NCBI GenBank assembly: GCA_015183035.1
Contig: JACZZP010000010.1
Coordinates: 310,001-374,000 of the forward strand
DNA: 64,000 bases
Reading direction: 5' to 3'
Origin: Meloidogyne chitwoodi
Lineage: Eukaryota > Nematoda > Chromadorea > Rhabditida > Meloidogynidae
Shown: positions 21,286 through 62,200 of the stretch, in pieces
How the letters are laid out: the number at the start of each line of letters is the position of its first letter
Numbering within the stretch: position 1 is the first letter of the stretch
The notes under the pieces: model-generated
What the model was told of the DNA's origin: nothing
The model's input: only the letters and a program-made list of their open reading frames with translations
Database searches by the model: none
Translations under genes and position numbers: made by a program

Positions 21286-23290
<2,005 letters not shown>

Positions 23291-23705
23291 TGCTACAAAT
23301 TTTGTTCAATAATTAATTAAAGAATCTAAAAAATTAAAAAATTTTTTAGTTGTGATTGATAAAGGAAAATATAATTTAAAAAAGTCAAAAACGCTGAAAA
23401 TAAAAATATTTAATTTTTATTCTTTCACGACTAGAAATTTTTAATAAAATAAATCATTCGAGTGTCACACCACGCGAAAGGACAGACAGAGGAATAAGGG
23501 AGAAAGAAAAGAAAAACACGCATACAACATTAGTCACGCAATATTCGATTTTTCCTGTTTTTAATGGATAGTTTCTTTGCTACACTTTTCTAAAAGAAAA
23601 AAATAAAAAAGCAACTCTTTCTTCACATTTTTTATTTTAATCTGAAGCCACAAATTTAACTAAAATATTTTTTTTTTAATTAAAAAAAAATATTTTAATA
23701 TTAAG
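23291..23705. promoter_or_regulatory. Divergent promoter region between GMP reductase and the BED-finger unit
   Basis: This 415-bp spacer separates two genes that start in opposite directions, so it should contain both promoters. It is AT-rich with a GC-richer core at about 23450-23530. No known motif was recognised. Confidence 0.4.
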
Positions 23706-24086
23706 ATGACAGAACATCCGATTTGGAAAATTGGTCTTTTTAATAGAATTAATGTAAATGAAGCAGAATGTATAAAATGCAAGGAACACGGAGCACTTAA
23801 ATATGTTTTCAAACTTCCTTATCGCAATTTAAAAGGTTAAATATTGAAGAGTTTAGGGCCACCATTAATTTATTTTTTTAGTTTATTTTTTTACCTTTTT
23901 TCCTCTGTTTTTGCTTTTAGCAAGTATCTCAGAAAAAACAGGAAAAAAAGTTAAAAAAATAAAAATAGTGGCCCTAAACTTCAATTTTATTACCAAAAAA
24001 GGTTTATTTGCACACGTACGAAGCAAAATTCACAAGGAATCTGAAGTTTGTAAATACTTTGAAGAACTTATGGCAGAACAAGATAG
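23706..24086 (+). CDS. BED-type zinc-finger unit (separate gene, or first exons of the Myb-cyanase gene)
   Basis: Two exons, 23706-23835 and 24002-24086, join in frame. They encode a compact finger: C-x2-C (ECIKCKEHG), then NLKGLFAHVRSKIH with H-x5-H, the spacing of BED fingers found in transposases and chromatin proteins. The second exon ends GAT AG with a good donor (AG|GTAAAA). If the intron is not removed, the next codons are AGG TAA, giving a 73-residue protein. If it is spliced to the acceptor at 24324, the frame continues exactly into the Myb/SANT exon (AGA ACT GGA). Both readings are legitimate on sequence alone. Confidence 0.6.
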
Positions 24087-24316
24087 GTAAAATTGAGAAA
24101 ATAAATTTTTTACGAGGCCTTTGTAAACTGAAATTCTTTAAAAAGTGTTTTACAAAATTTTACCAATTTAAATAATTGGCATTTTATTAATTGACATTTT
24201 GTCCAAATTTTCTTTTTTTGCAAAAGTCCAATAGAGTCAATGAATTTTATTTTGTATTTTTATTAGATTTATGGATTTTATTTATTCTTTTTTAATTTAA
24301 TAATTTTAAAATTTAA

Positions 24317-26096
24317 ATGTCTAGAACTGGAACCAGCAATTGGACAGAACATGAATTGACTGCTTTTTTTGAAGTATATTATTTAATATTTTTTTTAAAT
24401 TTTTTATTTTTTTAAAGGAAATTTCTTCAAGACGAGATTTACTTTTTCGAAGGAATAAACAAATAATTGGAGAACAAATTGATTTGGATACAATTTGGCT
24501 TTCAGTTGCCAATGCTTGTGAAGAGAGAGGATTTGAACGATTTGCTGGACGTACTCGAAAACAATTACAATGTGATCTGTGGGGAAAGAAGAAAAAAGAA
24601 ACGATGGAAAAATATGAAAATGTGAAGGCTACAGGAATTGAAGAAAGTCAAAAATGGAAAGAAGTATTTAATTAAACATTTTTTAATTTTGTTAAAACTT
24701 TCTTCAGTGGGAAATGATAATAATTGATATTTGTAAAAACAATGAAGACGAAGAAATTTATACAAATAATAGAAAAAGACCAATAGAAGAGCAATTATTA
24801 ACTTTAGCTAATCTTCATTCTGACACAAATAAAAATGAATATTCATTGGAAAGTGAAGATCTTCCACAAAATTCAAAAAGGCCAAAAAATGTTAGTTTAA
24901 AGGTTTATTTTTATTAAAAACAAGGATTGACTCTTCGATCTTTCCGTTAATTTCAAAATTCAATTTGGAAACAATATAAAAATTTAATTTTAGGAAGAAA
25001 ATTTAAATTTTATTCCTGAAATTTCTTTATTTGAACAATTATGTAATGCCAATAATTCAACAAATGTTTCATCAACTCAAAATGAAGTTCAATTAGTGGA
25101 AGAAGGTAATACAAAAAATACATTTGAAAATCAAACAGAACAACAAAAATCGTTGCCCTCAACTTCTAATACTTATTCTTCTAGAGAAGAAGTAATAAAT
25201 ACAATTTTTGCCCAAAAAATTAGATTAGGTCTAAAATGGACAGAAATAGCGGAACTTATTGGTTGTAGCAAAGAATGGACAACTGCTGCTTGTTTAGGAC
25301 AAATGCAGTTTAATGAAAGTGAAGCTGATAAAATGGTTAATTTTTTGATAAATTAAGTTTTATTTATTATTTTACAAACAGATTGAAATGTTTGATCTTT
25401 ACAAAGATGCGAAACATTGGCTTATGTCTGTTCCAAATAGAGGGAGTACTTCATCAATTACTTCAAATGATCCTCTTTTGTATCGGTTTCAAGAGGTATG
25501 TATTTTTATATTTTTAGTTTTTAAACTTATTTTGTACTTAAAAATAGAATTTGTAAAAACATTAAAATAAAAAATCAGAATTTGTAAAAACATTAAAACT
25601 CAAAATCAGAATTTGTAAAAACATTAAAACTCAAAATCAGAATTTGTAAAAACATTAAAATAAAAAATCAGAATTTGTAAAAACATTAAAACTCAAAATC
25701 AGAATTTGTAAAAACATTAAAATAAAAAATCAGAATTTGTAAAAACATTAAAACTCAAAATCAGAATTTGTAAAAACATTAAAACTTAAAAATCAGAATT
25801 TGTAAAAACAATAAAACTTAAAAATCATAATTTGTAAAAACAATAAAACTTGAAGATTAAAAATCAGAATTTTTTATTCTTTAAATTAATAAATTTTTAA
25901 CAATAAAATTAAATAAAAAATTAAGGTAATTAATATTTATGGTGGAGCACTCAAAGAATTAATAAATGAACAATTTGGAGATGGAATAATGAGTGCTGTT
26001 GATTTTAAAATAAATTTACAAAAAGAATCTTGCAATGAAGGTGACAGAGTAAAAATAACAATGTCTGGAAAATTTTTGCCTTATAAACGGTTTTAA
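24317..26096 (+). CDS. Myb/SANT-like DNA-binding domain fused to cyanase (cyanate hydratase)
   Basis: Exons 24317-24373, 24418-24663, 24708-24890 (or -24902), 24994-25335, 25382-25495 and 25926-26096 join in frame to about 370 residues. Residues 1-100 form a Myb/SANT-like module (NWTEHELTAFFEEISSRRDL, ANACEERGFERFAGRTRKQL, then a basic WGKKKKETMEKY). A polar linker of roughly 120 residues follows. The last about 146 residues are a complete cyanase, which in known enzymes turns cyanate and bicarbonate into ammonia and CO2. Catalytic Arg and Glu are in LLYRFQEV and Ser in FGDGIMSAVDF; the ending SGKFLPYKRF matches the family's LPTKPF-type end. The cyanase exon at 24994 has no ATG before the domain, and TAG lies in frame immediately upstream. 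It must therefore be spliced to upstream coding sequence; the Myb exon donor is phase 0, as needed. Three introns inside or beside the cyanase part exclude bacterial contamination. The alternative is a non-fused cyanase using an unseen first exon. Confidence 0.85.
25560..25890. repeat. Tandem AATCAGAATTTGTAAAAAC array in the last cyanase intron
   Basis: About ten units of roughly 31 bp built from AATCAGAATTTGTAAAAACA plus TTAAAACTCAA or TTAAAATAAAA. Unlike most other arrays in this window, all units point the same way. It expands the intron 25496-25925 to 430 bp. Confidence 0.88.
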
Positions 26097-26154: not shown

Positions 26155-26487
26155 TGGTAAAGACAAATTATTGAAAGGGCAATAATGTGTAGACAAGCAC
26201 GTGAATCTTTTTTACGAAATTAATTTTTTCCTTTTATCTTAAAGGGCAATAATGTGGATTTATTTATTTACTAAAATGTGTTTTGCTTTTTACCTTTAAT
26301 TTATTAAAAAACAAATTTATTTATTTTAGTGTAGTTTAGAATCGGAAAAATTTTGGCAATCCCGCCCTAAAAGGAGAAGCTTAAAAGAAATTAGTTGAAA
26401 GAGCACATTTTAAAGAAAATTCTTTTATTTATTCCCCTCATTTTGCATTAAATTTAATTAAATTATTTAAATTAAATTTATAAAACA
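26155..26487 (+). promoter_or_regulatory. Conserved 5' block of the secreted-protein family, copy 1
   Basis: The same block lies upstream of the first exon of all four complete family members (here; 29268-30442; 32590-33290; 35590-36492). It begins with two copies of AGGGCAATAATGTGG/T about 70 bp apart. It continues through GTGTAGTTTAGAATCGG and CCCGCCCTAAAAGGAG-like text and ends with ATTTAAATTAAATTT just before the ATG. In copies 2, 3 and 4 the block is interrupted by different insertions while its pieces stay recognisable, as expected for an inherited promoter rather than chance. Confidence 0.6.
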
Positions 26488-28744
26488 ATGTTCATTTCGT
26501 TGTTTTTAATTTTTTTATTTGTTTTATTAACAAATCAAACCTCTCAAAAAGGTTAAAAAAAATTTTTTTTAATTAAAAAAAATTAAAATAATTAAGAGAA
26601 AGAATTGTCTGCCGATGCTGAACCGTTTTTACCAAAAACTCGAGAAATTGGTTCATCTAGTAAAGGTTAAAAAAAATTATTTTTTTCTTATTATAAAATT
26701 TAATTTTATAAAAAGTTAAAAAATTGTCTGCAAATGCCGAGCCGTATATTCCTAAAAGTTCTTGTTCTGAATATAAATATGCTAGAAGCTTAAATACTTT
26801 TAATATTGGCGAGTTTGTACAAGTAGAGAATGATACTCAATGGAATAATGCATTAATATTAGATAAAAATACAATAGAAAATAAATATGTAATACAAATT
26901 ATTGATAGCAATGGCGAATATAAAAAAATATTTAGACGAAGACCATTTAGAGTTCGTAGATGTTTAAGGTTTGAAATTAATTACTAAGTTTTAATTATAA
27001 AATCCATACATTGGTTTACTTTTTGCCGTAACTGGGACTTGTGTAGTTTAGGTACTCACCCCATTTATTCGCAGGAAAATATTTAAAAAAATTAATACGG
27101 ATTTTCTTGCGAATAAATGGGACGTTTTTGCGTTACACTAATTCTCTTCCTTTTTGATTTTTTCTCTTGCGAATAAATGGGATGGATACCAAACTACGCA
27201 GTTTCTCATGCCCTCTTGTCCCACTAATAAGATAAACTAATAGAAGAAGAAAAATGAAACAAGCAAAATAATTTTAATAACCAAGTTGAATAAAGTGTTA
27301 ATCTTAATGGTGATATCTAGGGTTGACGTATAGTGTAGAGTAATGTTTAGAGACAATAAAATGTTGGGTTGATTTAAACTTTTCGTCCTCCTAACCTATC
27401 CCATCATTTCCCTTATCCCCTACTCTATTAGCGCAAATATAAACTCACTGCCAGTGCTTGGGAGCTCGTACCAAAATTCGTACTCGTACTCGTCCTCGTA
27501 CTCGTACTTTGGTACGAAGTACGAGTACGAGTACGAGGAAAAAATAAAGGCAGTACGAAGTACGAGTACGAGTACGAAGGAAAAAAATGACTAAAGTACG
27601 AGGTACGAGGCGTAAGTACGAGGTCGTACTCTCGTACTTAAGGTTTAAATTTGCGCCAAATTTCTTTCTTTCTTTTCCATTCGGAAATAAAATTTCCACT
27701 CCATTCCCCTTCTCATAGTTTATTTTTACACGTGAGAAAAGAAAAGGAATGTTTATATATATATGCAATTTACTTAATTTTTCCAAGTATGCATCTATGG
27801 TTTAGTGGTTAATGCTTTAGTCTGTTTTAGTAAATTGGTTGAGGTTCGAATCATTTAATAAGGGAAAGGAATTTTGAGTTATTAATTGCTGCTAAAGTCA
27901 TTTCTGTTTTAAAAATTTTAGAAGCAAAATTAAATCAGAAATTTTCTCCTACGGCATTAAAAAAAGTGCAATTTTTGGCAACAGATGCTTAAAAATTTTA
28001 AAAATTTTTGCCTGCGGCGCTGAAAATGATGAATTTTTGGCTACTAAAGTGCAATAATGTTTCAAAATTTTCGCCTGCGGCGCTATAAAAAAACTAACTT
28101 TATGAAAATTTACCCAAAACGCAAGAAAAAAAATATAAGGAAAGTACGAGGTACGAGTACGAGTACGATGGAAAAAATAAGACTGGTACGAGGTAGAGTA
28201 CGAGTACGAGCAAAAAATAAAGGTAATACGAGGTACGAGTACGAGTACGAGGGAAAAAATATGGCTGGTACGAAGTACGAGTACGAGCAAAATCAAAATT
28301 TCCAAGCACTGCTCACTGCTCTTTTTCCGCTTTTATAAATATTTTAATTATTCTCGTTTTAGTACAACTTATAATGTTGGTGATTTTGTTAAATTTCGTA
28401 ATAGAAGAATTGAATGGCTTGAAGCAATAATAACAGATGTAGGCTTTAAAAATAATGGAACTGAACAGTACATTGTTAAAGTTATTGATCGTTGTCCATT
28501 ATATAATAAACTATTTAAACGAATTCCAAGACAAATAATAAAGTCAGAAAATACACTCGTAACTTTCAAAAAGGGAGACATAGTTGAAATAATGCATAGT
28601 AAAATGTATCGAATACCTGTAGAAGATTGGATTAAGGCAAAAGTTATAGGAATAAAGGAAGGAAAATATGTTTTGAAGTCATTAGGAAATAATAATAGCA
28701 AAACACGTTACCCATTTGAGTTGCGTTACCCAAAAGAACATTAA
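26488..28744 (+). CDS. Secreted protein with three SH3/Tudor/agenet-like repeats, family copy 1
   Basis: Exons 26488-26551, 26597-26665, 26716-26968 and 28363-28744 give about 255 residues. The first exon is a textbook signal peptide (MFISLFLIFLFVLLTNQ). Exons 2 and 3 begin with related peptides (KELSADAEPFLPK and KKLSANAEPYIPK), suggesting an exon duplication found only in this copy. Three beta-barrel-like repeats follow, each opening with F-x-x-G-(D/E)-x-V: FNIGEFVQVENDTQWNNALI, YNVGDFVKFRNRRIEWLEAI and FKKGDIVEIMHSK with WIKAKVIGI. The spacing of the Gly-Asp-x-Val start, the Trp-x-x-Ala strand and a following Y-x-V strand fits agenet/Tudor-type SH3-like folds; this is a pattern judgement. 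The third intron (1.39 kb) is swollen by an 860-bp transposon. The end of exon 3 (CLR) differs from sisters, so that donor is less certain. Confidence 0.72.
27452..28311. mobile_element. Non-autonomous hAT-like element with TACGAG word arrays (copy A)
   Basis: The 860-bp element starts CAGTGCTTGG and ends CCAAGCACTG. It is flanked by a perfect 8-bp duplication, CTCACTGC, at 27444-27451 and 28312-28319. Family copies 2 and 3 show the uninterrupted site (ACTCACTGCCCTC). Inside each end is an array of GTACGAG/CTCGTAC words (27476-27640; 28140-28290). The middle holds a tRNA-like sequence (27789-27866) and three GCCTGCGGCGC-type words. There is no coding capacity. CAGTG ends plus 8-bp duplications are hAT hallmarks. 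Confidence 0.85.
27789..27866 (+). pseudogene. tRNA-like module inside hAT-like copy A
   Basis: An A-box-like TGGTTTAGTGG (27798-27808) and a B-box-like GGTTCGAATC (27843-27852) are correctly spaced, but the acceptor arms do not pair. The same module occurs in copy B at 39094-39166, so it travels with the element. Confidence 0.55.
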
Positions 28745-28850
28745 AAATGGAATTTGTTGGTTAGATTGTATCAGTTTTTAAAGAAGAAAAGAAGACAATT
28801 ATTTATTTTTAAAAAGACAAAACTCTTTAAACTCAGTTGCTAGTAGATTG

Positions 28851-29019
28851 TAGAGATAGGAACAGGATCGAGTCCCGATCCGTTTTTCTGATTTTTTGAG
28901 ACATCGGGATGAAATCGGAATCGGGAATTCCCGATTTTCCCGATTCGGGTCCGTCCCGATCGTTCAATTTTTAAATTTCCCGTTTCCCGATCCCGATTTT
29001 TTCAAAATTCATATCTCTA
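28851..29019. mobile_element. Short hAT-like/MITE element with CCCGATC words
   Basis: The 169-bp segment begins TAGAGATAGG and ends ATATCTCTA. It is flanked by GTAGATTG and GTAGATAG (7 of 8 identical). The interior is dense in CCCGAT/ATCGGG words that can fold back on each other. Confidence 0.55.
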
Positions 29020-29295
29020 GTAGATAGACATAATTTATTTAATTTCAATCTTTTTTTCTTAAAATGTCGAAACTTGTGGTTTAAGTGTCACAAATCCATT
29101 TATTCGCAGGAAATTTTTGTACAGTGAAAAATTGACGAAAATATTTTTTGCGACTAAATGGGGTGATACCTAAACCACGCAAGTTAATATTTCTTTCAAA
29201 ATATATGAACTATTGTCCTTTATAAAAAAATAAAAAAATTTTTAAATGATTTTGATAAAGAAAAATTATCTAAAGGGCAATAATGTGTAGACAAG

Positions 29296-29530
29296 CACTG
29301 ATTTTTTGGTGCTGATAGATGCCGACAGTGCTGTTTTCGACAGTAAAATAAAACTCTAAGAATCTTCTTAAAAACGAGTTTTGGGCAATGTCCGGGCTTA
29401 GGGATTGATAATAAATATATCCGGATGACTTCAACAAAAAAACCGGAAGAAATTTCATAAGTATCCGGATTTAGGCAGACAGTTAGAAAATGAGAAATAG
29501 TTAACTGTCGAAAACTGTTTCCACGGATTT
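29296..29530. mobile_element. Insertion with CTGTTTTCGACAGT inverted ends in the copy-2 promoter
   Basis: CTGTTTTCGACAGT (29331-29344) and AACTGTCGAAAACTG (29502-29516) face each other. The surrounding promoter continues without this DNA in copy 1 (ACAAGCACGTGAATCTTTTTTAC). Inner copies of ATCCGGAT are also inverted. The exact ends are unclear. Confidence 0.5.
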
Positions 29531-29942
29531 TTTTTACGAAATTAATTTTTTTCCTTTTATTTAAAGGGCATTAATGTGGATTTTAACATATTTTTTCAAC
29601 TTATATTAACCACTATTCCTTTATTTAAAAAATAAAAATTTTCTAAGAAATTGTTTTATTTTTAATTTATTAATAACCACATTTATTAAATAATAAACTT
29701 AAAAATGCAGGATATAATTAGGTTGTTTAAAAAAATATTTTAACTTTAAAAAACATTTAATATAATTTATATATTTTAATTTAATTTATAAATTATTATA
29801 AAAAATTATTATTAAAAAAATCAATTTTCGATGCCCTTCTAAAATTTTATCTTTAATTGATTAAAAGAGAGTAAATGCCATCAATATGCCCTTTTCGATA
29901 ACCGGAAAAGGCAAAAAGAGTGTCCTTACAAAATATACACGT

Positions 29943-30042
29943 AATTGTACGACATTTCGTCCCAACAGCAAAAAATCGTGGGCTCGTGTAAACGAAATGT
30001 AATTTTTTGCCTTAGAGACGAAATGTCGTGCAATAGAGTGGA
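29943..30042. repeat. Small fold-back unit with ACGACATTTCGTC ends
   Basis: The left end TTGTACGACATTTCGTCCC and right end GAGACGAAATGTCGTGCAA are inverted near-copies about 100 bp apart, with an extra ACGAAATGT word on each side of the right arm. It looks like a MITE or hairpin-forming repeat. Confidence 0.6.
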
Positions 30043-30442
30043 ACGAAATGTAGAGTAGCCGAGTCATTGAGAGATGATAAACTAGAGGAGAGTTAAAATT
30101 GAATGAATGCTTATTTAACATTTTGACATTTATGTGCGGCACGTTTGATCATTTTGAAAGAAATATTATTCGTCTATCTAAAGGCCAATAATGTAGATAT
30201 TATTTATTAAAATGTATTTTGATTTGCACTTTTTATTAATTTATTAAAAAATTTATTTGAGTGTAGTAAACAAGTGTTAGACGCTAATTAGATCATTAGG
30301 GCAAATCTTGAAAACCCCGCCCTTAAAATGAGTTGTTTAAAAGAAATTAGTTATTAGTTGAATTAACTCATTCTAAGAAAATTTATTTATTTAATATTAG
30401 CCTTAAATTTAATTAAATTATTTAAATTAAATTTAAAAGGCA

Positions 30443-31760
30443 ATGTTCATTTCGTTGTTTTTAATTTTTTTATTTGTTTTATTAACAAATCAAGCATCTT
30501 CAACTGGATCAAATAAAAGTTAAATTTTTTTAAATTTTATTAAAAATTTTTTAAAGGAAAAGGATTGTCTGACTATACTGGGGAGTCATCTACTCATAAA
30601 CGTCATCGTCCATCCTATGAAAATATTAATTCTCAATTTCAATATGGTATAACTATTAAGTCCTTTAATATTGGTGATTTTGTACAAGTATGGAATATAG
30701 ATCAATGGATTAAAGCAAAAATATTAAATAAATTAATAAAAGGAAAATATGCGCTTTTTGATCAGTATGAAGTAGTAATTTTAGAATATGAAGGAGAACA
30801 AAATATTTTTTATGGGAAAATATTTAATCGAACACCAGAATATGTCCGCAAGTGTTTAGACCAAAACGAACCTACTGGCTTGTAAGTTTTTAATTATTAA
30901 AATTTAAGCTGTAGAATTTCAACATTTTTGTTCTCACTCTAACCTCCATACACCAACAATTTACACAAAAATATTGAGAATTGAAGAGAACTTCTCTTCT
31001 TAGATTATTCATAGATAGAATAAAGTATAGCTCTGACTTTTCAAAATATTTTTAGAGTGTCCGCAAATGTCTAGTTGCCCTGGGGACGGTAAAGGAAGCA
31101 CACTTGACTACTCCTACCCTCTTAACGTACATACTAGGGAAGCATCGTATCGTATTTTTTGGGTGCTTTTGTATCGTATATCTATCGTATTTTTCTGAAA
31201 TAATATCGTATCGTATTTTTTACGATTTTATATCATATCTCATTTTACAGAACGATATGCATCCCTGGTACATACTCCTTCACTTATCAAACTTTTTATC
31301 AAAAATGAACTCACTGCCCTCTTTTATTTTTCAATGCCATTATAAAAATATTTTTAATTTAATTATATTACTCATTTTCTTCAACAGGAACCCTTTTAAA
31401 ATTGGTGATTTTGTTAAAGTCAGGAATCCTGATAGTGAATGGCTTGAAGCAATAATAAAAAATGTAGAATTGACAAGAAATGGAGCTCAAAAATACCATG
31501 CTAAGATTATTGAGCGTGATAGATATTATGAAGATTTATTTACTTATACTCCAAACAATATAATAAAGTCTGTAAATAACCTCAAAACCTTCAAAGTAGG
31601 ACAAATAGTTTACAGAAATATTTTAGTGCCTCATTCTTCTATAACCTGGATTAAGGTAAAAATTCTGGAAAAAACTGATGAGAAGTATATTGTGAAGGAC
31701 GTAGAAGGTGAAAAAATAGAGTCAGAACTCTATCCATATGAATTACATATTTTTGATTGA
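30443..31760 (+). CDS. Secreted protein with three SH3/Tudor/agenet-like repeats, family copy 2
   Basis: Exons 30443-30518, 30557-30881 and 31388-31760 join in frame to about 257 residues. The signal peptide MFISLFLIFLFVLLTNQASS is followed by a basic patch (THKRHRP) and three repeats: FNIGDFVQVWNIDQWIKAKI, FKIGDFVKVRNPDSEWLEAI and FKVGQIVYRNILVP with WIKVKILEK. Exon 2 is nearly identical to that of copy 3, whereas repeats 2 and 3 differ strongly. Unlike copies 3-5, it has no intron after the second repeat. Secretion is supported by the leader; a role as a secreted effector is inference from family behaviour (tandem copies, rapid divergence). Confidence 0.82.
31135..31267. mobile_element. 133-bp hAT-like MITE with ATCGTATCGTA words
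   Basis: It starts TAGGGAAGCAT and ends ATGCATCCCTG. It is flanked by the perfect 8-bp duplication GTACATAC at 31127-31134 and 31268-31275. The interior is made of TATCGTATCG-type words. It lies in intron 2 of family copy 2. Confidence 0.82.
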
Positions 31761-32589
31761 ATTAAAAAGAGAGAATTTGTTTAAAAAACAAAAATTTGAT
31801 ACTTTAATTTATTTCATGTACCCTATTTTGGTGCTAAAAATTAAGTAAAAATCTATTTTTTAAATTTTTGTAAATCTACAACATATTAATTAATTAAAAA
31901 ATAAATATAAAATTAGAATCTGGTCTAAAACTAGTCTTTTAATACTCTCAAACCATCATGGGAAGAGCTCAAACCCAGAGAACAACCGTCTGTGCCACCA
32001 TCCGTGCTAGGAAAATCGGTCAGTGGAAAATGCGTCAGTGAAGAAACAGTACATTAAAACACAAAAACACATGTAAAACACAAAAACACCTGCAAAACAC
32101 AAAACTACATGCAAAACACAATACACTAAAAAAAATTTAATGTATTTTTGTGTTTTACATGTATTTTAGTGATTTTATGTACTGTTTCTTCACTGACCGA
32201 TTTTCCACTGACCGATTTTCCACTGACCGATTTTCCACTGACCGATTTTCCGGGAGCCCCACCATCCAACCCTCTGATAGTTCATTTTTATGCACTCATA
32301 TCAAGTATACGGATATAATTGAATTTAAAAATTTTGTTGAAAAATTTTCTAGTAAACAAACATTTAAATTTATTAAATTTCATAAAAAAATTTTTTATTT
32401 TATTTATCTTTAGTCTTTAAATTTCTTTCAATTTATATATTTACTAATTTCCCTTTATAAAAAAAATAAAATAATTTTCTAAGAAAATTATTTTATTTTT
32501 ATGTTATTAATTTAGTGGGATGGAATAATGAGTGCTGTTGATTTTTAAATAAATTTACAAAAAGAATTTTGTAATGAAGGACAGAGTAA
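31761..32589. other. Intergenic DNA between family copies 2 and 3
   Basis: It holds a word-repeat inverted element (32008-32253) and a relic of the cyanase 3' end (32517-32599). The rest is AT-rich with no coding potential. Confidence 0.55.
32008..32253. repeat. Inverted element with GGAAAATCGGTCAGTG words
   Basis: The left end carries GGAAAATCGGTCAGTGGAAA and the right end four tandem inverse copies, CACTGACCGATTTTC. The inner arms (AACACAAAAACACATGTAAA versus its complement) also pair. A related, more decayed element lies at 37215-37385. No clear target duplication was seen. Confidence 0.7.
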
Positions 32590-32599
32590 AAATAACAAA
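32517..32599 (+). pseudogene. Duplicated relic of the cyanase last exon
   Basis: Nearly the same sequence as 25977-26062 (GGAATAATGAGTGCTGTTGA, then ATAAATTTACAAAAAGAAT). An extra T and small deletions create stops (ATTTTTAAATAA). It is followed directly by the family promoter block, just as the real cyanase exon is followed by the copy-1 promoter. Confidence 0.85.
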
Positions 32600-33290
32600 A
32601 GGGCAATAATGTGTAGACAAGCATGTGAATCTTATGAAATTAATTTTTTCCTTTTATCTTAAAGGGCAATAATGTGGATTTATTTATTTACTAAAATGTG
32701 TTTTGCTTTTTACCTTTAATTTAATTTATTAAAAAATAGTTTAGAATCGGAAAAATTTTGGCAATCCTGCCCTAAAAGGAGTAGCTTAAAATAAATTAGT
32801 TATTAGTTGAAAGAGCTCATTCTAAGAAAATTTATTTAATTTATTTTATCCCTAAATTTAATTAAATTAGGAAATACTGCAGTCTATCGGCCGCCGACTA
32901 TTATTTATTTTATTTGAAAAAGCACGATAAGCTTGGACCTATTGGGAGTGTTTTATCACTTCTTCATTTGGGCTCCCATGGCTGCTTGGCTTTTGGTACG
33001 TGCGTTATTCTACAGCTATAATTACAACAAAATGATTAATTCAGCGAAAATAGTTAAAGAGCAGCCGCGGTAATCACACAGAGGAGCTTACTCCCCTCTA
33101 TGGTTTTTCAATTTTTATATGTCTATAACTCGCTTCGGACTTGAGAGCGGGGACTGATTTTGGGCTCATTCGACTTGACTATAAGAGCTCTTTCAAATGA
33201 AGCGTTACAACTCACCGATTGACAATTTTTTTTGGCGGCCGATAGACTGCAGTACAGCCATTAAGTTATTTAAATTAAATTTAAAAGGCA
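32590..33290 (+). promoter_or_regulatory. Conserved 5' block of family copy 3, split by a TIR element
   Basis: Both AGGGCAATAATGTG words and the GTTTAGAATCGGAAAAATTT stretch are present. The AT-rich last part is split by the 380-bp element 32873-33258. The pieces fit the copy-1 block on either side. Confidence 0.6.
32873..33258. mobile_element. PIF/Harbinger-like MITE with 22-bp perfect inverted repeats
   Basis: TACTGCAGTCTATCGGCCGC and its inverted copy sit at 32875-32894 and 33235-33254. With flanking GGAAA and CAGCC included, the element is bordered by ATTA on both sides, matching the TWA/TTA target preference of PIF/Harbinger transposons. The same promoter in copy 4 shows the uninterrupted site. 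The interior has no transposase. It includes a GAGCTCTTTCAAATGAAG module shared with other loci. Confidence 0.65.
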
Positions 33291-34772
33291 ATGTTCATTT
33301 CGTTGTTTTTAATTTTTTTATTTGTTTTATTAACAAATCAAGCATCTTCAACTGGATCAAATAAAAGTTAAATTTTTTTTAATTTTATTAAAAATTTTTT
33401 AAAGGAAAAGGATTGTCTCACTATACTGGGGAGTCATCTACTCATAAACGTCATCGTCCATCCTATGAAAGTATTAATTCTCAATTTCAATATGGTATAA
33501 CCATTAATACCTTTGATATTGGTGATTTTGTACAAGTATGGAATATAGATCAATGGATTAAAGCAAAAATATTAAATAAATTAATAAAAGGAAAATATGC
33601 GCTTTTTGATCAGTATGAAGTAGTAATTTTAGAATATGAAGGAGAACAAAATATTTTTTATGGGAAAATATTTAATCGAACACCAGAATATGTCCGCAAG
33701 TGTTTAAATCCAAACGAACCTACTGGCTGGTAAGTTTTTAATTATTAAAATTTAAAATCACCCTAATTTCAATATAAATCATCTAAAATCAACACAAAAA
33801 GATAAAATTTAATAAAAAATAGATTTATTTTAAGGACGATTTGCGTTTATTTTATTGGTGATTTATAGGGGTGTTAACCAGTGATGGAAAAATTCCACTT
33901 CCGCAACTGGAACTACCAAATTTCTAAAACTGTTTTGGAAAAAGGGAACTATGGAACTGGTTAATTATTAGAACTGGTCCGGAACTAATAAGTTCTAGAA
34001 CTGGAACAATGAAAATTAAAATGCAGTTCAGGAACTGGAACTAATTACGTGGAAATTTTGTAACTTTTGTATCATTGCTCCTATCCTCATAAATTTCATA
34101 CACTTTCACTTATCCCAACAATTTATTAAAATATAAACTCACTGCCCTCTCTTTTATTTTTCAGCGTCATTATAAATATTTTTTAATTTAATTATATACT
34201 CATTTTCTTAAACAGGAATGCTTTTAAAATTGGCGATTTTGTTAAATTCAATAATCTTGATGGTGATGTGGTTGAATGGCTTGAAGCAATAATAACAGGA
34301 AAAAAATTTACATTTATTGGAACTGAAAAATACAAATTAAAGGTGAGTCAACCTAATTGGTCAACACCCTTTTGATCAACACCCTTTTGGTCAACACCCT
34401 ATTGCTCAACACAGAGCCACTTGCGTTGATCAATAGGGTAATTTGGTCAATTGGGAGTTGACCAATTGAGTGTTAATAAATTGACTCTTACAGATTATTC
34501 AACGTACTGGATTAAATAATCAAACAATTACTCGTGCTCCGAACGATATAATGATGTCTTTAAATAACCTCGGAACCTTCAAAGTAGGTGAAAAAGCTTA
34601 CATGAATGTCATGGTGCCTAGAAAGACAATAACATGGTTTGAGGTAGTAATTCTGGGAAAAACTGAGGAAATGTATAAAGTGAAGAAAGTAACAACTGGA
34701 GAGAAGATTAAACTCTATCCATATGAGTTACATAATCTCAGTGAAACAGAGTTAGAAATGCTGCGTATGTGA
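33291..34772 (+). CDS. Secreted protein with three SH3/Tudor/agenet-like repeats, family copy 3
   Basis: Exons 33291-33366, 33405-33729, 34216-34342 and 34494-34772 join in frame to about 268 residues. It has the same signal peptide and THKRHRP patch as copy 2. Repeats: FDIGDFVQVWNIDQWIKAKI, FKIGDFVKFNNLDGDVVEWL and FKVGEKAYMNVMVPRK with WFEVVILGK. It ends YPYELHNLSETELEMLRM. Exon 2 differs from copy 2 at about eight residues only. An extra intron (34343-34493), formed by a hairpin-like repeat, splits the second repeat. Confidence 0.82.
33879..34077. repeat. GGAACTGG word cluster, possible decayed hAT-like element
   Basis: Begins CAGTGATGGAAAAATTCC and ends near ATCATTG. The interior is a set of GGAACTGGAACT words in both orientations. 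The ends are only partly complementary and no target duplication was found, so the element call is weak. Confidence 0.4.
34343..34493. repeat. Intron made of an inverted repeat (GTGAGTCAAC...GTTGACCAATTGGG), copy 3
   Basis: The intron starts GTGAGTCAACCTAATTGGTC and ends AATTGACTCTTACAG. Internal words ATTGGTCAACACCCTATTG and CAATAGGGTAATTTGGTCAA pair with each other, so the whole intron folds into a hairpin whose base carries both splice sites. Equivalents occur at 39821-39948 and 43279-43393; copies 1 and 2 lack this intron. Here the left arm has an extra CACCCTTTTGGTCAA unit. Confidence 0.75.
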
Positions 34773-35589
34773 AAAACACCTCCGACTAAAACACTGTCTG
34801 GAAACTAGATTAAACTTTATTGAGAAATCATGAGTAAAGAAAAGGTAACATAACAAGCCTCTTCTTTGGGAGTGTTTTATTAATTCTACACTTTTGGGTC
34901 TATATGACTGGTTGCTCTTCACAAAACTAGAATCTATTGAGGATTAAAAAAATTTTTTTATTAGAATTATAATTAAACTTTAAATTTCTTTCAATTTATA
35001 TATTTAATACTGTACCTTTATAAAAAAGATAAATATTTTCTAAGAAAATTTTTTGTTTTTCCTTTGGTAACAGCTCAGACTATTAAAAGAAAAGAGCAAG
35101 GTTCGAGTCCCTTTAGTGGTAATGATTTAAAATAAAAAATGTAAAAAATATATTTTTGCTTTTTTATTAATATTGTAACAAAATAAAAATAATTTTCTCT
35201 TCTTTTTGTCTCGTTTTATCTTCATTTCTTCTCAATTTTCGCATTTTTGCTTGAATTATTACATAATAATTTACCAAAATTATTGTGAAACTGAGTTTAA
35301 ATTAAAAATTAGACATTTTCATTCTTTTGAGAGGATAAAAAATGTTCACAGGATATCTTACGATATAATCGACTTTGAATTTGGTAACTTAAGATTTTTT
35401 AGCAAAATAGCGAAGTAAAGAAAGAGCGAAGGAAATACAACAAATGCTGAAACGTCCATTTTCTTTTTTCGACACTGAAGCGACTTCAAAGCATTTTTAT
35501 TTATTTTATTTTTTAAATTTTATAAATATTATTTAAATTTTTTTTATTTTATTAAATTTTTTCAATCGATTTTTTAAAGAAAAATTTAT
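34773..35589. other. 3' flank and intergenic DNA after copy 3
   Basis: The first about 150 bp (GAAAAACACC, ACTAAAACACTGT, then CTCTTCTTTGGGAGTG) is conserved after copies 4 and 5 and probably contains the 3' UTR. A tRNA-like fragment with GGTTCGAGTCC lies at about 35050-35110. The remainder is AT-rich. Confidence 0.5.
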
Positions 35590-36492
35590 CTAAAGGGCAA
35601 TAATGGGGAGAGCAAGCGCACGTGAATCTTTTTTTTCGAAATTAATTTTTTCGTTTTTCGTAAAGGGAAATAATATGGATTTATATCTAAAATGTGTTTT
35701 GCTATATCTTTATTTAATTTATTGACACTTTTTAAGAAGATTTTGGGTTTTTTGCGGACAACATTTATTATATTTGATTCTTGTCTTAAAGCAGAATTTA
35801 CTCACATAAATAATAATTTTTATTTCTCTTTTCTCAACGCATTTTCTTTCAACAATTATAGATTCTACATTGAAATATCTACCAACCATTGTTGCAATGT
35901 TAGAGCGAAACTTCCGTACGTCCACAAAATCTTACAAATAAATTAGTTTATCTCCTTTTTAAAGGACCAATTTATTTAACAACATTGTAGCATGGTACTA
36001 AATATATATCCAAGTTTTGGACTAGAAGTTGAGTCCAGAAGCGTTGCTTCGGAAGTTTCGGCCTGCAGTTGAAACTCTTCTTTTGGTAAACTGATTTTGT
36101 ATAATTGTAATAAAATAAAATTTTTAAAAGTTTGAGTAATTTTATTGAATAATTGATTAACAAAAATGGTCAAAAACATGTATATTATTTGTTAATTGAT
36201 TTATGAACTTTATTGCTTTACGACAAAAAATCAAATGAATATAATAAATTTTGTCCGCAAAAAAAGTCCGCAAAAAATCTATCTCTTCTTAAAAAGTGTC
36301 AATCTATTTTTTCAAAAATATATTTGAGTGTAGTTTAGAATCGAGAAAATCTTGGAAACTCCGCCCTTAAAATGAGATGCTTAAAAGAAAATATTTTTAG
36401 TTGAAAGAACTCATTCTAAGAAATTCTTTTATTTATTCCCCTCATTTTAGCCTTAAATTTAATTAAGTTATTTAAATTAAATTTAAAAGGCA
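35590..36492 (+). promoter_or_regulatory. Conserved 5' block of family copy 4, split by a TIR element
   Basis: AGGGCAATAATGG, the AAGGGAAATAATATGG half, TTTAGAATCGAGAAAATCTT and the AT-rich end before the ATG are all present. They are separated by the 577-bp element 35724-36300. Confidence 0.55.
35724..36300. mobile_element. 577-bp TIR element with GACACTTTTTAAGAAG ends
   Basis: GACACTTTTTAAGAAG (35724-35739) and CTTCTTAAAAAGTGTC (36285-36300) are perfect inverted repeats. Just inside, TTTTTTGCGGACAA and TTGTCCGCAAAAAA also pair. No transposase is encoded. The target duplication could not be defined because the flanks are also complementary (ATT/AAT). Confidence 0.7.
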
Positions 36493-39400
36493 ATGTTCAT
36501 TTCGTTGTTTTTAATTTTTTTATTTGTTTTATTAACAAATCAAGCATCTTCAACTGGATCAAATAAAAGTTAAATTTTTTAATTTTAAAATAAAAAATTT
36601 AAAAATTTTTTAAAGGAAAAGGATATCACGGTACTGGGGAGTCGTCTAGTCATAAGTGTCATCGTCTATCCTATAAAAATATTAATTCTCAATTTCAATA
36701 TGGTATAACCATTAATACCTTTGATATTGGTGATTTTGTACAAGTATGGAATAGTTGCAAGATTAATGGTCACTTGACTAAACCTCAATGGATTAAAAGT
36801 CACTGGTCTGAAAGTCAATGGATTGACGGTCACTGGGCTGAACGTCAATGGATTGCTACACACTGGGCATGTCAATGGCTTAAAGCAAGAATAGTAAATG
36901 TCAATTCTGGTCAGTATGAAGTAGTAATTTTAGAATATGAAGGAGAACATAAAAAACTTTATGGGAAAATATTTACTCGAAAACCAGAAGTAATCCGCAA
37001 TTTAGACCCAAATGAACCTACTGGCTGGTAAGTACTTTTAATTATTAAAATTTAAAATGAGGACGGCAGGAATGGATCCCGTGCCCAAAATCCCAGTTCT
37101 AATTTTATGGATAAGGTACGATCAAAGCCTCTTTTTGGTCTTAGATTATCAATGAATAGAATAACGTACAGCTCTCGTTTTTCAAAAAATTTTAAATCGC
37201 GTCGCAAAGCTCCCAGAAAATGCGTCAGAGGAAAATCGATCAGTAAAGAAACATTACATAAAATCATAAGAAAAACAAAAATACACGATAAACACAGAAT
37301 TTTTTTTTAATGTATTTTTGTGTTTTTCCTGTATTGTTTTTTCTTATGCTTTTATGTATTCTTTATTGACCGATTTTCCACTAACGTACTGGACACACGC
37401 TCAACTGTGCGCCGACATTTGCGGCCGAGACATTTGCGGACCCAACAGTTGCGGAATACGGACACGACTTTTGCGGACAGGACATTGATAACAAAAAATT
37501 ACCAATACCCGATACATAATGACCATGGGCCTTCAAAAAGATCAAATTATTTCTATTTAGAGATTCATAAAGATTTTTCAGAATTTGTTATTTTTTTATT
37601 TTTGTAGAAATTTTTTTACAGTCATTGGTCCGCAAATGTCGGATAGCCCACTCAACTACTCTTATCCTCATAATTACATACCCTTTCACTTATCCCAACC
37701 AGTGTTTTCGTGACCGGGTTTCGGTCATGACCAAAAGTGACCTGACCTGACCTGACCGAAATTTTTGGTCAGGTCATTTTGGTGACCGGGAAAAGGCCAG
37801 TCAGGTCAGGTCAGATTTTTTGACCAAAAATTCAAAATGGTCATGACCGGTCATATGACCGAAAATCGAAAAATGTCACTGACCGTTATTTAATTTTTCC
37901 CCCTTTTCTTTCCCTTCTTTCACTCATATGCATGGGGGAAGAAAAGAATTATTAATGAGAAAGATTTATTTAGAATTAAATTGACTATTATGTTAGTGTG
38001 AGTTTGGTTGAGTGGTTAGTGTGTTAGACTTAGGTCAAAACTTAACGTGGGTTCGAGTCCTTTGATATTTACCATTTATTTCTCTGTCGTTAATTAATAT
38101 CAAATTTGTTCATCTTTGTTTTTCTTTCATTTTTAAACATTTTAGAAGAAAAAATAATTCTATATTTTTGTTTCGACGTTAAAAATGTGAATTTTTGGCA
38201 ACTAAAGTGTAATAATTTTTCAGAAATTTTCGCCTGCGGCGCAAAAACTCCCGGCACCCGAAATTTATGAAAATCTACCCGACCCGAACCCGGCACCGCG
38301 GCAACTCTGGTCGGGATCCCAGAAATCTGAATTTTTTTATTTTTAGTCTGCACCGATTGAGCATTTTTTCGCAGTATTCTTTTGCTACCCATCGAAGCAA
38401 AATGAGCATAAACTGTTGAATGACAGCCCTATTTATCTATTTAAATCATTCATTAATGAATTAAGTTTATTTAAATGTATTTCTTTTTTATTTTGCTATC
38501 CCATAGAGAAATTTAAAACAAAAATGGAATAAAATATATGCCAAATGAATTTTTGTACCCTTATATTTCAAAAATTTTTTCGGTCATTTTCTGTCATGAC
38601 CAAACGTGACCTGACCTGACCTGACCGAAATTGCGGTCATGGTCAGGTCAGGTCATTTTTGATGACCGAAATTTCCGGTCAGGTCAGGTCATTTTTATGA
38701 CCGGGAAAAGGCCGGTCACGAAAACACTGATCCCAACAATTTATTAAAATACAAACTCACTGGCAGTGGTTGGAAGCTCGTACCAAAATTCGTACTCGTA
38801 CTCGTCCTCGTACTCGTACTTTGGTACGAAGTACGAGTACGAGTACGAGCAAAAAAATAATGCTGGTACGAGGTACGAGTACGAGGGAAAAAAATGACTA
38901 AAATACGAGGTACGAGGCATAAGTACGAGCTCGTACTCTCGTACTTAAGGTTTAAATTTTCGCCAAATTTCTTTCTTTCTTTTCCATGTGGAAATAAAAT
39001 GTTCACTCCATTCCTCTTCCCCAAGTTTATTTTTACAAGCGAGAAAAGAAAAGGAATGTTTATATATATGTAATTTACTTATTTCTTCCAAGTATGCATC
39101 TATGGTTTAGTGGTTAGTGCATTAGTCTGTTTTAGTAAATTGGTTGAGGTTCGAATCCTCTAATAATGGAAATAAATATTGAGTAGATTAATTGCTGCTA
39201 GAGTTAGTTCTGTTTTCAAATTTTTGAAACAAAATTAAAGCAGAAATTTTCGTCTACGGCACTAAAAAAAGTGCAATTTTTGGCAACAGATGTTTAAAAA
39301 TTTTAAAAATTTTTGCCTGCGGCGCTGAAAATGCTGAATTTTTGGCAACTAAAGTGCAATAATTTTTCAAAATTTTCGCCTGCGGCGCTATAAAAAAACT

Positions 39401-59200: not shown

Positions 59201-62200
59201 CCCCCGCCTTGGCTAAGAAATAAGTTTAGGATTATAATATTAAAAAGAAAAAAAAATTTTTTCAAACTTTTTTTACCTGATAGTCCCTAACCCTTACATA
59301 TGACATGGCCTTTAGCATTACAATTATTTTTTTTTATTTTTTTTTAATTAAAAAATTTATATATATTTCTAAATAATATACATATATATATATTATTTAA
59401 ATAAATAAATAAAAGAGATAAGAACGTTTGTATATTTATTTTTTATTTATTTCCAAAAGTATTCTCCCCCTTCATTTTATTGTTTTGTTATAAATACATT
59501 TTACTCTCTCTGATGTTGAGTTTTGCCTTTTTCTGAAAATTAATACAATAGGGAAGGAAAATTGTAAATAAAAGGTTTTGAAAAGAGTTTTTGAAATTTT
59601 TTATATTTTTTTAAATATTTTTTTTTCATTTAGGAAAGACATATTTTATTGGAAAAAGTCAAAGTTTATTCGATTTGACAGACAACAACAATAAAGTTGA
59701 ACAAAATAATTCAAAACAATTTTTAGAAGATCCTAAAGAATCTCTTAGAACTATAATTGCTGAAATGACGGCAATTGAGGCTGAGACTTGTGAGATGCTT
59801 GGAAGATTACAATTTAATATTCAAGGTAAAAATAAACTTTATTAGGAAATTTTAAGTTTGTGATGATGTTAGCTCGTTGGTCCAGTGGTATGACGCTCGA
59901 CTTGTGGGAGAGGGTTCCGTGTTCGATCCACGGCGGCGCCCAATATTTTTTTCTTGAACAAAATTAGATTTTATGACCTCATAAATTTATAGGAAATTTT
60001 TTAAAGTTGTTTGGGTACTGTATCTTTATCCTATTATACTTATAAACGGATTTTATTGTTTATTATTTGACAAATTTTATTTTTAATTCAATTTTATTTT
60101 TATTTTATAGCAATAATCGGATTTGCACGCATCTGCACTGGAGATGTGTTTGAAGTATCTATTCGACATGGCCACCAACGTTGGCGAACTCGTGGAAAAA
60201 CTCAGCCAGACAAATCACAGCGTTGGGACCAACAACCTCCAATTGCCTCAATTCATGTCTTATGGAATGTCCCTGTGACTGTTAGAGTAATGGAAATTGG
60301 ATTTCTTAGAGCTCGTTGTCTCAGTGAGCGACAATTTGACCCTGCCAAGTTTGCTGCAGTACAACCCCAATTAGTCACAATGAATTTAAATAGCTCTGGA
60401 AGCCTTAAATTAAGGTTAATTGTCACTTGGCTTCCTCTACTTTGTTCAAAAAGCCCTCCTCAATTACATCATTTAAAAGAGAATTTATTTAATAATAATG
60501 TTTCTCCAAGTGAGTACAATCTGCAAAATTTCTCACAGAGGTATTTGTTGATTTAAAAAATTAAAAAAAAAATTTTTTTGAAGGCCAGAACCTTTGTCAC
60601 AAAATTCTGCCTCAAACGGTAAACTTCGCCAGCATCAGTCTCAAATTGTTATTAATAATAATAGTCAAAAACGACAACAACAAAATGGGGGTAGCATTTG
60701 GCGAACTACAAGCAGCAATTCTTCTCCCTCATCCTTATTATTACAACATACAATTAATAATAAAACTTGTATTAATGAACAAACGAATGGTAAACTTAAG
60801 AATTATTTATTCGCAAACTTAAAAATTAAATAAACTTGAAACTTTAATTGAATTTTATAAGATTAAGATTGTAAACTTGAAAATAAAAAATACTCAACTT
60901 AAGATTAAATACTTAAACTTTTCTAAGTTTATTAAACATAAACATATATTTTTAGCTATAAAATAAATAAACTTGAAACTAACTTTTGCTTCAATATTAA
61001 GATAAAAATACTTCAAAGATTAAAAATTAAAAAATTATTTTTTATTTTATTTTATTTTTTTAAATAAAATTAGATGTTCACCCTTCTTCTGAACAATCTA
61101 CATCATCTCTTATCTCTTCCTCTACTATTTTAGAAAATGGCCCAGTCACTAAAGTTTGTCTTCGAGACAAGAAACGTCAACGCGAACAACGTTTAAAACT
61201 TGGTGCAAGTGTAGGGGCTGCTTTAGGAAATGTTGGTGGAATTAGTAGAGAATCAAGTAAAACAGAAAAGGATAGATGGAGATGTTCTTCTACTACTACA
61301 CTTTTGGATGATGTTTATAAAGATTTGTCAAAGTCAATTCCGACTATTGATGATGTAATTAATTTTTTTTTAATAAATTAGTGACATTTTATCCAAAAAT
61401 TTAATTTAAACAAATTTTTAGCTTTCCGCTCTTCACTCATCTAAATCTGGAAGTATTTGTGGTGGAAGCCTTGGCCACTCCAATAATGCCTTTGCCGATC
61501 CATCTTCATCTTCTTCAATATCTGAAGGTCGTGGAACTCGTAGCGGTGGTGCTAAACGAATATTTTCTTTTGTTAAAAGAGGAGGAAACGATAAATCTTC
61601 ATTAGACAAAATGACAGCCTCAGAGTGGCGTAAATCTGTCAGTCTTGCCCAAATCCCACAAAGCAAAAGTTTAGAAATTGAACAAAAAGGCTCAAAGAAA
61701 AATCAAGGCAAAGAGGTTGATGAACCTGAAGAGCCAGAAGAATTTAACGAAAATGTGAGGAAAGAGAAAGGAGTTAGGCAAGTATTTAAATAAAATATGA
61801 CAGTCAATAAATACTGGTAATAATTTTTGTGAATCAAATAGCAACTTGAAGCTTTTTCAAGATTAAACTTGAAAAAAAAAAAGAAGCACGGAAAAATATT
61901 AAAAGCGCAAACTTAAAAATAAACAACTTTAAAACTTGAAAATGAATTAAAGATTAAACTTAAGTTTTTCCAAGTTTATTAAACTTAAAATAATAAACTT
62001 GAACTTTTATTACTTATTTAGACCAAAAAGTGTTTTTTATCCTCCTGAGCCTTATGCAACTTTCGACCCACAATATTATTCTTCTAATCGTCAGGTTAAT
62101 AATGAAATTAAAAAAGAGTTTGAAAGTGCTCTTCAAACAGTAGATGCTTTACTTGATATGATTGAATGTTTACGTGTTTATTTGGCTAAATTGAGGTAAT

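Follow-up and report, generated by a model that had tools for sequence, protein, structure and literature searches.

In the root-knot nematode Meloidogyne chitwoodi, a gene on the forward strand appears to encode a cyanase that is joined, on its N-terminal side, to putative DNA-binding modules. The stretch of DNA analysed, hereafter the window, comprises 64,000 nucleotides (C2:310001-374000, contig JACZZP010000010.1) of the 30-contig, 47,477,280-base assembly GCA_015183035.1, and the gene occupies positions 23706-26096 of it. Eight exons form an open spliced frame of 443 residues, with GT/AG borders at all seven introns. From the N- to the C-terminus, the predicted product contains a BED-type finger, a Myb/SANT-like region, a linker with basic patches and a complete cyanase. 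Judging from colinear gene models in related species, the fused protein is in all probability real, and the fusion is very likely older than M. chitwoodi. On balance, we also lean towards the fuller reading, in which one eight-exon gene specifies a chimeric finger/Myb-like/cyanase protein with a presumed DNA-binding function in the nucleus.

A preliminary description of this locus had placed the start codon at ATG 24317 and considered the Myb/SANT-like module to be the only coding sequence upstream of the cyanase. ATG 24317 was rejected as the start, as it lies within intron 2, eight bases before the exon at 24325, and the colinear Meloidogyne floridensis and Meloidogyne javanica models start at 23706 and give two more exons, which encode a finger of the hAT type. 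Exon 1 (23706-23835) contains the start codon and the first part of the finger (residues 1-43, including C22 and C25), and exon 2 (24002-24086), with GT/AG borders, contains the remainder (H48 and H54, up to residue 71); both are colinear with the two models, exon 1 from Met1. An in-frame stop is present upstream at 23661, and the AAG right before ATG 23706 could be a splice acceptor. The Myb/SANT-like region begins in exon 3 (24325-24373) and is completed in exon 4 (24418-24663; residues 89-170, with KKKK at 145), followed by exon 5 (24708-24902), which contains Met173 and the basic patches RKR at 192 and KRPK at 227. Exon 6 (24994-25335) encodes a methionine-free linker (residues 236-295) and the N-terminal cyanase domain (CYNS_N from residue 299). 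The cyanase continues in exon 7 (25382-25495), with the predicted catalytic residues R384 (25484-25486) and E387 (25493-25495), and ends in exon 8 (25926-26096), which contains the C-terminal domain, S410 (25992-25994) and the stop codon. Intron 7 (25496-25925) carries approximately ten copies of a 31-bp AT-rich repeat at 25538-25848.

The junction in front of the cyanase agrees with the preliminary description. Intron 5 (24903-24993) precedes the exon that opens the cyanase part and contains no ATG. The in-frame TAG at 24991-24993 has the splice acceptor at its end. In the exon that starts at 24994, no in-frame ATG precedes the cyanase domain; the first, at 25303, already lies within it. Joining from the phase 0 donor at 24902/24903 keeps the reading frame. 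Apart from intron 1 (phase 1) and intron 2 (phase 2), the introns are in phase 0 (5/7), and the phase match is therefore weak evidence by itself.

The cyanase was also found to be complete, with its catalytic Arg, Glu and Ser, as had been claimed. On the joined product, Pfam identified CYNS_N (PF21291, E 3e-21, 75.6 bits with a cut-off of 27.1) and Cyanate_lyase (PF02560, E 1.9e-31, 108.1 bits with a cut-off of 25), and the NCBIfam model cynS (TIGR00673) matched with an E of 3.7e-40 (137.4 bits with a cut-off of 113.3). In the alignment to 1dw9, Arg96, Glu99 and Ser122 of the Escherichia coli cyanase, which we take to be the catalytic residues, correspond to R384, E387 and S410. Cyanases are decamers. 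The window protein shares both domains and the catalytic Arg/Glu/Ser with stand-alone CynS, but approximately 295 residues stand in front of its cyanase. In a listing of 120 cyanase rows, most are 147-166 residues long. The earlier statement that known cyanases are stand-alone is nevertheless too strong: a protein search with the preliminary version of the product gave 272 matches, and 14 of the best 120 contain an ABC-ATPase domain. In such chains, as in the window, the cyanase lies within a longer protein, but its partner is a transporter ATPase and not a DNA-binding module. An exon-by-exon PF02560 search of the assembly (E up to 0.001, 2 candidates scored) gave one match, and a second cyanase elsewhere in the genome was rejected within this search.

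The top two matches of the protein search were gene models of M. floridensis (P0001, 432 amino acids) and M. javanica (P0002, 400 amino acids). P0001 is the representative of an 8-member cluster, and the comparison rests on this representative. Both proteins start with MTEHPIWKIGL and are colinear with the window protein from Met1 into the cyanase. Compared with P0001 and P0002, respectively, the window protein is identical at 63/71 and 64/71 residues of the finger, 73/98 residues of the Myb-like region in both, 33/63 aligned residues of exon 5 in both, and 20/44 and 22/44 residues of the linker. For the cyanase, the values are 104/131 (counted up to the faulty tail of P0001) and 82/97 (exon 7 being missing from P0002). 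Expressed as ranges, identity is 89-90% in the finger and 79-85% in the cyanase. By this measure, the finger is conserved at least as strongly as the enzyme and far more strongly than the linker.

The linker directly before the cyanase is conserved as protein and is methionine-free in all four Meloidogyne sequences (61, 51, 51 and 45 residues), so the cyanase cannot start within it. Moreover, exon 5 is joined in frame to exon 6 in 4/4 Meloidogyne models, that of Meloidogyne hapla (P0003; 29/54 aligned exon 5 residues identical) included. The colinear M. floridensis and M. javanica models and the methionine-free linker thus sustain the earlier claim of a longer chain that ends in the cyanase and has a DNA-binding-type module ahead of it. 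Searching with residues 1-235 (E up to 1), a procedure which picks candidates by shared 5-residue words and misses distant relatives, gave P0001 and P0002 alone from 287 candidates. Therefore, as far as found, the finger/Myb pair precedes a cyanase.

The finger has the putative zinc ligands C22-x2-C25 and H48-x5-H54. When residues 1-235 were searched against the M. chitwoodi genome (E up to 1), 14 matches were obtained, including five to the gene itself, eight to the finger elsewhere (E 1.6e-4 or better; the best six from 2.6e-10 to 5.8e-9) and a single weak one to the Myb part (C29, E 0.307). For five of the eight non-self finger matches, all five among the best six, a hAT dimerisation domain lies 1,640-1,641 bases downstream on the same strand; at one such element, which was scanned with PF05699, the domain had an E of 3.9e-19 (L010:2035-2340). 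The window finger and the finger of a hAT element in the same genome are identical at 25/64 residues and share the C-x2-C and H-x5-H spacing. The nearest relative is a separate 132-residue open frame on C26 (30/62 identical), downstream of which a hAT domain was not found. We call the finger BED-type by kinship and not as a member of PF02892, because Pfam zf-BED was not reported. The finger frame of the hAT element also gave no zf-BED row, and a relative at L006 gave only an E of 0.17.

Unlike a hAT transposase, the window protein has no transposase catalytic or dimerisation part, and its finger is followed by the Myb-like region and the cyanase. In host-transposase fusion genes, the DNA-binding domain of a transposase has been captured by a host gene. 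The window gene resembles them in that a transposase-related finger is apparently joined in frame to an unrelated protein. The papers found on host-transposase fusions deal with other hosts and other domains, and the partner in the window is a horizontally acquired enzyme. Fingers of the same kind occur in three short open frames at L006:1471-1866 (+), L011:1371-1694 (-) and L012:1364-1528 (-). Near downstream of these frames, no hAT domain was found on the strand for two of them, and the distance was over 800 kb for L012; these frames may be degraded or domesticated copies. At another locus (L009, C9:1598985-1602179), two hAT-type fingers are encoded by near-identical 186-residue frames on opposite strands, diverging and approximately 0.8 kb apart.

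The Myb/SANT label is tentative. Scores for PF13837 ranged from 10.4 to 17.9 bits with a cut-off of 27 (17 for the window region alone), and those for PF13873 were 12.8 bits for P0002 (cut-off 21.7) and 9.7 bits for the window region. All three rows of the Myb-like alignment matched PF13837 and PF13873 at E up to 10, the best values being 0.0039 and 0.0071. The identity proposed in the preliminary description corresponds to a weak PF13837 match that did not reach the Pfam cut-off, and a domain search of the joined product returned the cyanase domains over the cut-off, the Myb-like region below it and zf-BED not at all. Since both the finger and the Myb parts lie below Pfam cut-offs, the fusion is easy to miss.

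The AlphaFold single-chain model of P0001 (mean predicted local distance difference test (pLDDT) score 61.7, predicted template modelling (pTM) score 0.37) contains a hairpin and a helix at 21-52 and three helices at 84-98, 110-123 and 134-158; the rows of window exons 4 and 5 were partly misplaced in the alignment used. In the Foldseek/VIA comparison of this model, the rows shown fell on the cyanase part, with one set spanning residues 281-379 and the finger/Myb part barely covered, and the structure search gave cyanases first, followed by bacterial and phage regulators. A PDB sequence search with the three-row Myb-like alignment gave a best E of 0.42, to an unrelated entry.

A midpoint-rooted tree was built from 50 chosen rows, with supports given as bootstrap/Shimodaira-Hasegawa-like approximate likelihood ratio test (SH-aLRT). 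The window cyanase is sister to that of Meloidogyne graminicola (100/96) within a Meloidogyne clade (100/100), which is joined by Heterodera trifolii (P0122) and Globodera pallida (P0123) at 99/92. Nine nematode rows group with P0024 and P0027 in a single clade (100/98); its nearest neighbours carry bacterial names, for example, Pokkaliibacter and Marinobacterium (forks 90/93 and 82/58). No rows named as fungal, plant, filarial, ascarid or Trichinella cyanases were included, and the tree is therefore no test of the published two or three acquisitions. Unlike the window protein, P0122 and P0123 (165 and 160 residues) have a short N-terminus with no finger or Myb part. Because the cyst nematode and Aphelenchoides cyanases are stand-alone, the fusion is placed on the Meloidogyne line, where it probably arose.

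P0024 contains, by eye, an insert resembling an unspliced intron at the position of window intron 7, which would fit common descent. In P0027, which lies on a long branch inside the nematode clade, a MADF domain (PF10545, E 5.5e-16) is joined to a cyanase (E 3.9e-29). Like the window protein, P0027 has a Myb/SANT-class domain before the cyanase, but no finger was seen in it, and its MADF domain did not match the window Myb-like region (hhalign probability 0.5%). P0027 may represent a second, separate capture of a DNA-binding domain. In Bursaphelenchus okinawaensis, a chain of ribosomal L1 and cyanase (P0037) was also observed, which may be a merged model.

Several observations weigh against the favoured reading of one gene for a chimeric, DNA-binding cyanase. 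The fusion is known here from genomic DNA and database gene models, and the two colinear models are imperfect predictions: the sequence of P0001 diverges after NEG shortly before its end, and exactly exon 7, with the catalytic Arg and Glu, is missing from P0002. The M. hapla model is missing the finger and the Myb part, and the M. graminicola cyanase (P0121) is annotated as a stand-alone protein of 151 residues starting with MSFYSSRDEV. Regarding the DNA-binding part, a scan of the window protein at E up to 5 returned no zf-BED row. The PF13837 match remained below the cut-off (E 0.92 in a 374-residue version, 0.27 in the 443-residue version and 0.0079 for the region alone), and in the own-genome search with PF13837, a single match was found, on C4 and below the cut-off, without the window gene being picked. 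Additionally, conservation in the part of the cyanase encoded by exon 8 almost equals that of the finger (50/56 with P0002; 63/76 with P0003 and 66/76 with P0121). Finally, exon 5 contains a methionine in all four Meloidogyne sequences, so a shorter product starting in exon 5 is possible, and the earlier wording that the cyanase "can only be expressed" as the full fusion goes too far.

The M. hapla and M. graminicola models and the exon 5 methionines are in line with the explanation that, in each species, gene prediction has combined two neighbouring genes, and that the cyanase has another start, such as a methionine in exon 5 or a first exon that escaped notice. Where gene order is conserved, several predictions could err in the same way, and read-through past exon 5 meets a stop at 24915-24917. 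We consider this explanation improbable. In four species, the segment before the cyanase is free of methionines and shows conservation at the protein level, the in-frame join of exon 5 recurs in every model, intron 5 offers no ATG, and the position of the methionine within exon 5 differs between the sequences. Moreover, the borders 25335/25382 and 25495/25926 agree with those implied by the missing exon of P0002. The M. hapla model opens with a few residues resembling those at the exon 3 border and looks like a model that skipped exons, and the annotated start of P0121 may be genuine or may correspond to a methionine of the linker. The stop after exon 5 is also the basis of another explanation, in which the gene makes two products: splicing of intron 5 would yield the fusion, and retention of this intron would yield a finger/Myb protein that stops at 24915-24917. 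The in-frame TAA does lie only a few codons downstream of the intron 5 donor; however, the introns are AT-rich and most of their frames hold stops, so a stop here is expected by chance, and we regard a two-product gene as very improbable.

Other explanations accept the fusion but differ in what it does. The protein might be only a cytosolic detoxifier of cyanate, with the upstream modules as passive baggage from exon capture. The intact catalytic residues and both cyanase domains are in line with this, as is the listing of nematode cyanate lyase under detoxification in published passages, and because the assembly gave a single PF02560 match, the window gene may still carry out the original task. 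Nevertheless, passive baggage is unlikely, because the finger is conserved at least as well as the enzyme (63/71 against 104/131 in P0001 and 64/71 against 82/97 in P0002) and the spacing of its zinc ligands is kept. Conversely, the cyanase part might no longer be catalytic and be kept as the oligomerising and ligand-sensing core of a transcription factor, which we also hold to be improbable.

For the favoured chimeric protein, we tentatively propose a nuclear DNA-binding mechanism, although the odds are somewhat against it. The Meloidogyne line, once separated from that of the cyst nematodes, would have added DNA-binding exons upstream of a stand-alone cyanase that it already possessed. The retained catalytic residues suggest that cyanate is still a substrate or a ligand. 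The cyanase part would still self-assemble and convert cyanate, and up to ten finger/Myb modules per assembly might then bind DNA or chromatin multivalently in the nucleus, with the basic stretches at residues 99, 145, 192 and 227 possibly aiding nuclear entry. The nuclear role could be either cyanate-responsive gene regulation or protection of nuclear proteins near chromatin from carbamylation. In the most specific version, which is rather doubtful, a bacterial enzyme became, after its acquisition, a nuclear regulator that responds to a metabolite. By binding or breaking down cyanate, its cyanase core would determine how an assembly with many transposon-type fingers and Myb-like modules binds DNA.

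Several other features were observed in the window. Downstream of the gene (26484-37031, + strand), four open frames (26712-26984, 28181-28741, 31056-31757 and 36603-37028) share, by eye, a 'GDFVQVxN...W.EAII'-like motif and look like a dispersed tandem family. Pfam gave no match over the cut-off for these frames (Agenet, E 0.013, for one), and the first, as judged by eye, may begin near 26488 with a hydrophobic stretch resembling a signal. Upstream, a gene of the IMP dehydrogenase/GMP reductase type is located at approximately 21837-23140 on the minus strand (PF00478, E 6.7e-13 for 22001-22174, the only piece scanned). An open frame at 60071-60553 (+) matches FAM65/PL48 (PF15903, E 3.3e-21). 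Rfam and tRNA scans of the window gave no matches.

The horizontally acquired cyanase of root-knot nematodes is already known. Passages in PMC7593179, PMC3511272 (Table 1, Minc06015), PMC4413825, PMC7696266 and PMC5664098 present root-knot cyanate lyase as a horizontally acquired gene, and a passage in PMC4901422 does so for Globodera. Nematode cyanases are reviewed in PMC9079694, where M. hapla is given three introns; no word beginning with "fusion" occurs in the main text of this review, and one reference-list passage of PMC12643312 has no mention of cyanate. By titles and abstract openings, no account of a cyanase joined to a DNA-binding domain was found in the open-access literature searched.

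If the nuclear regulator reading is true, the existence of P0027 would imply at least two captures of DNA-binding domains by nematode cyanases. Should the fused protein be made, transposase-type DNA-binding exons have been added to a metabolic enzyme of horizontal origin, and the root-knot enzyme now listed as a plain detoxifier would need a new functional reading. Two routes to new genes, horizontal transfer and the capture of transposon domains, would then meet in one animal gene, providing a simple, testable case.
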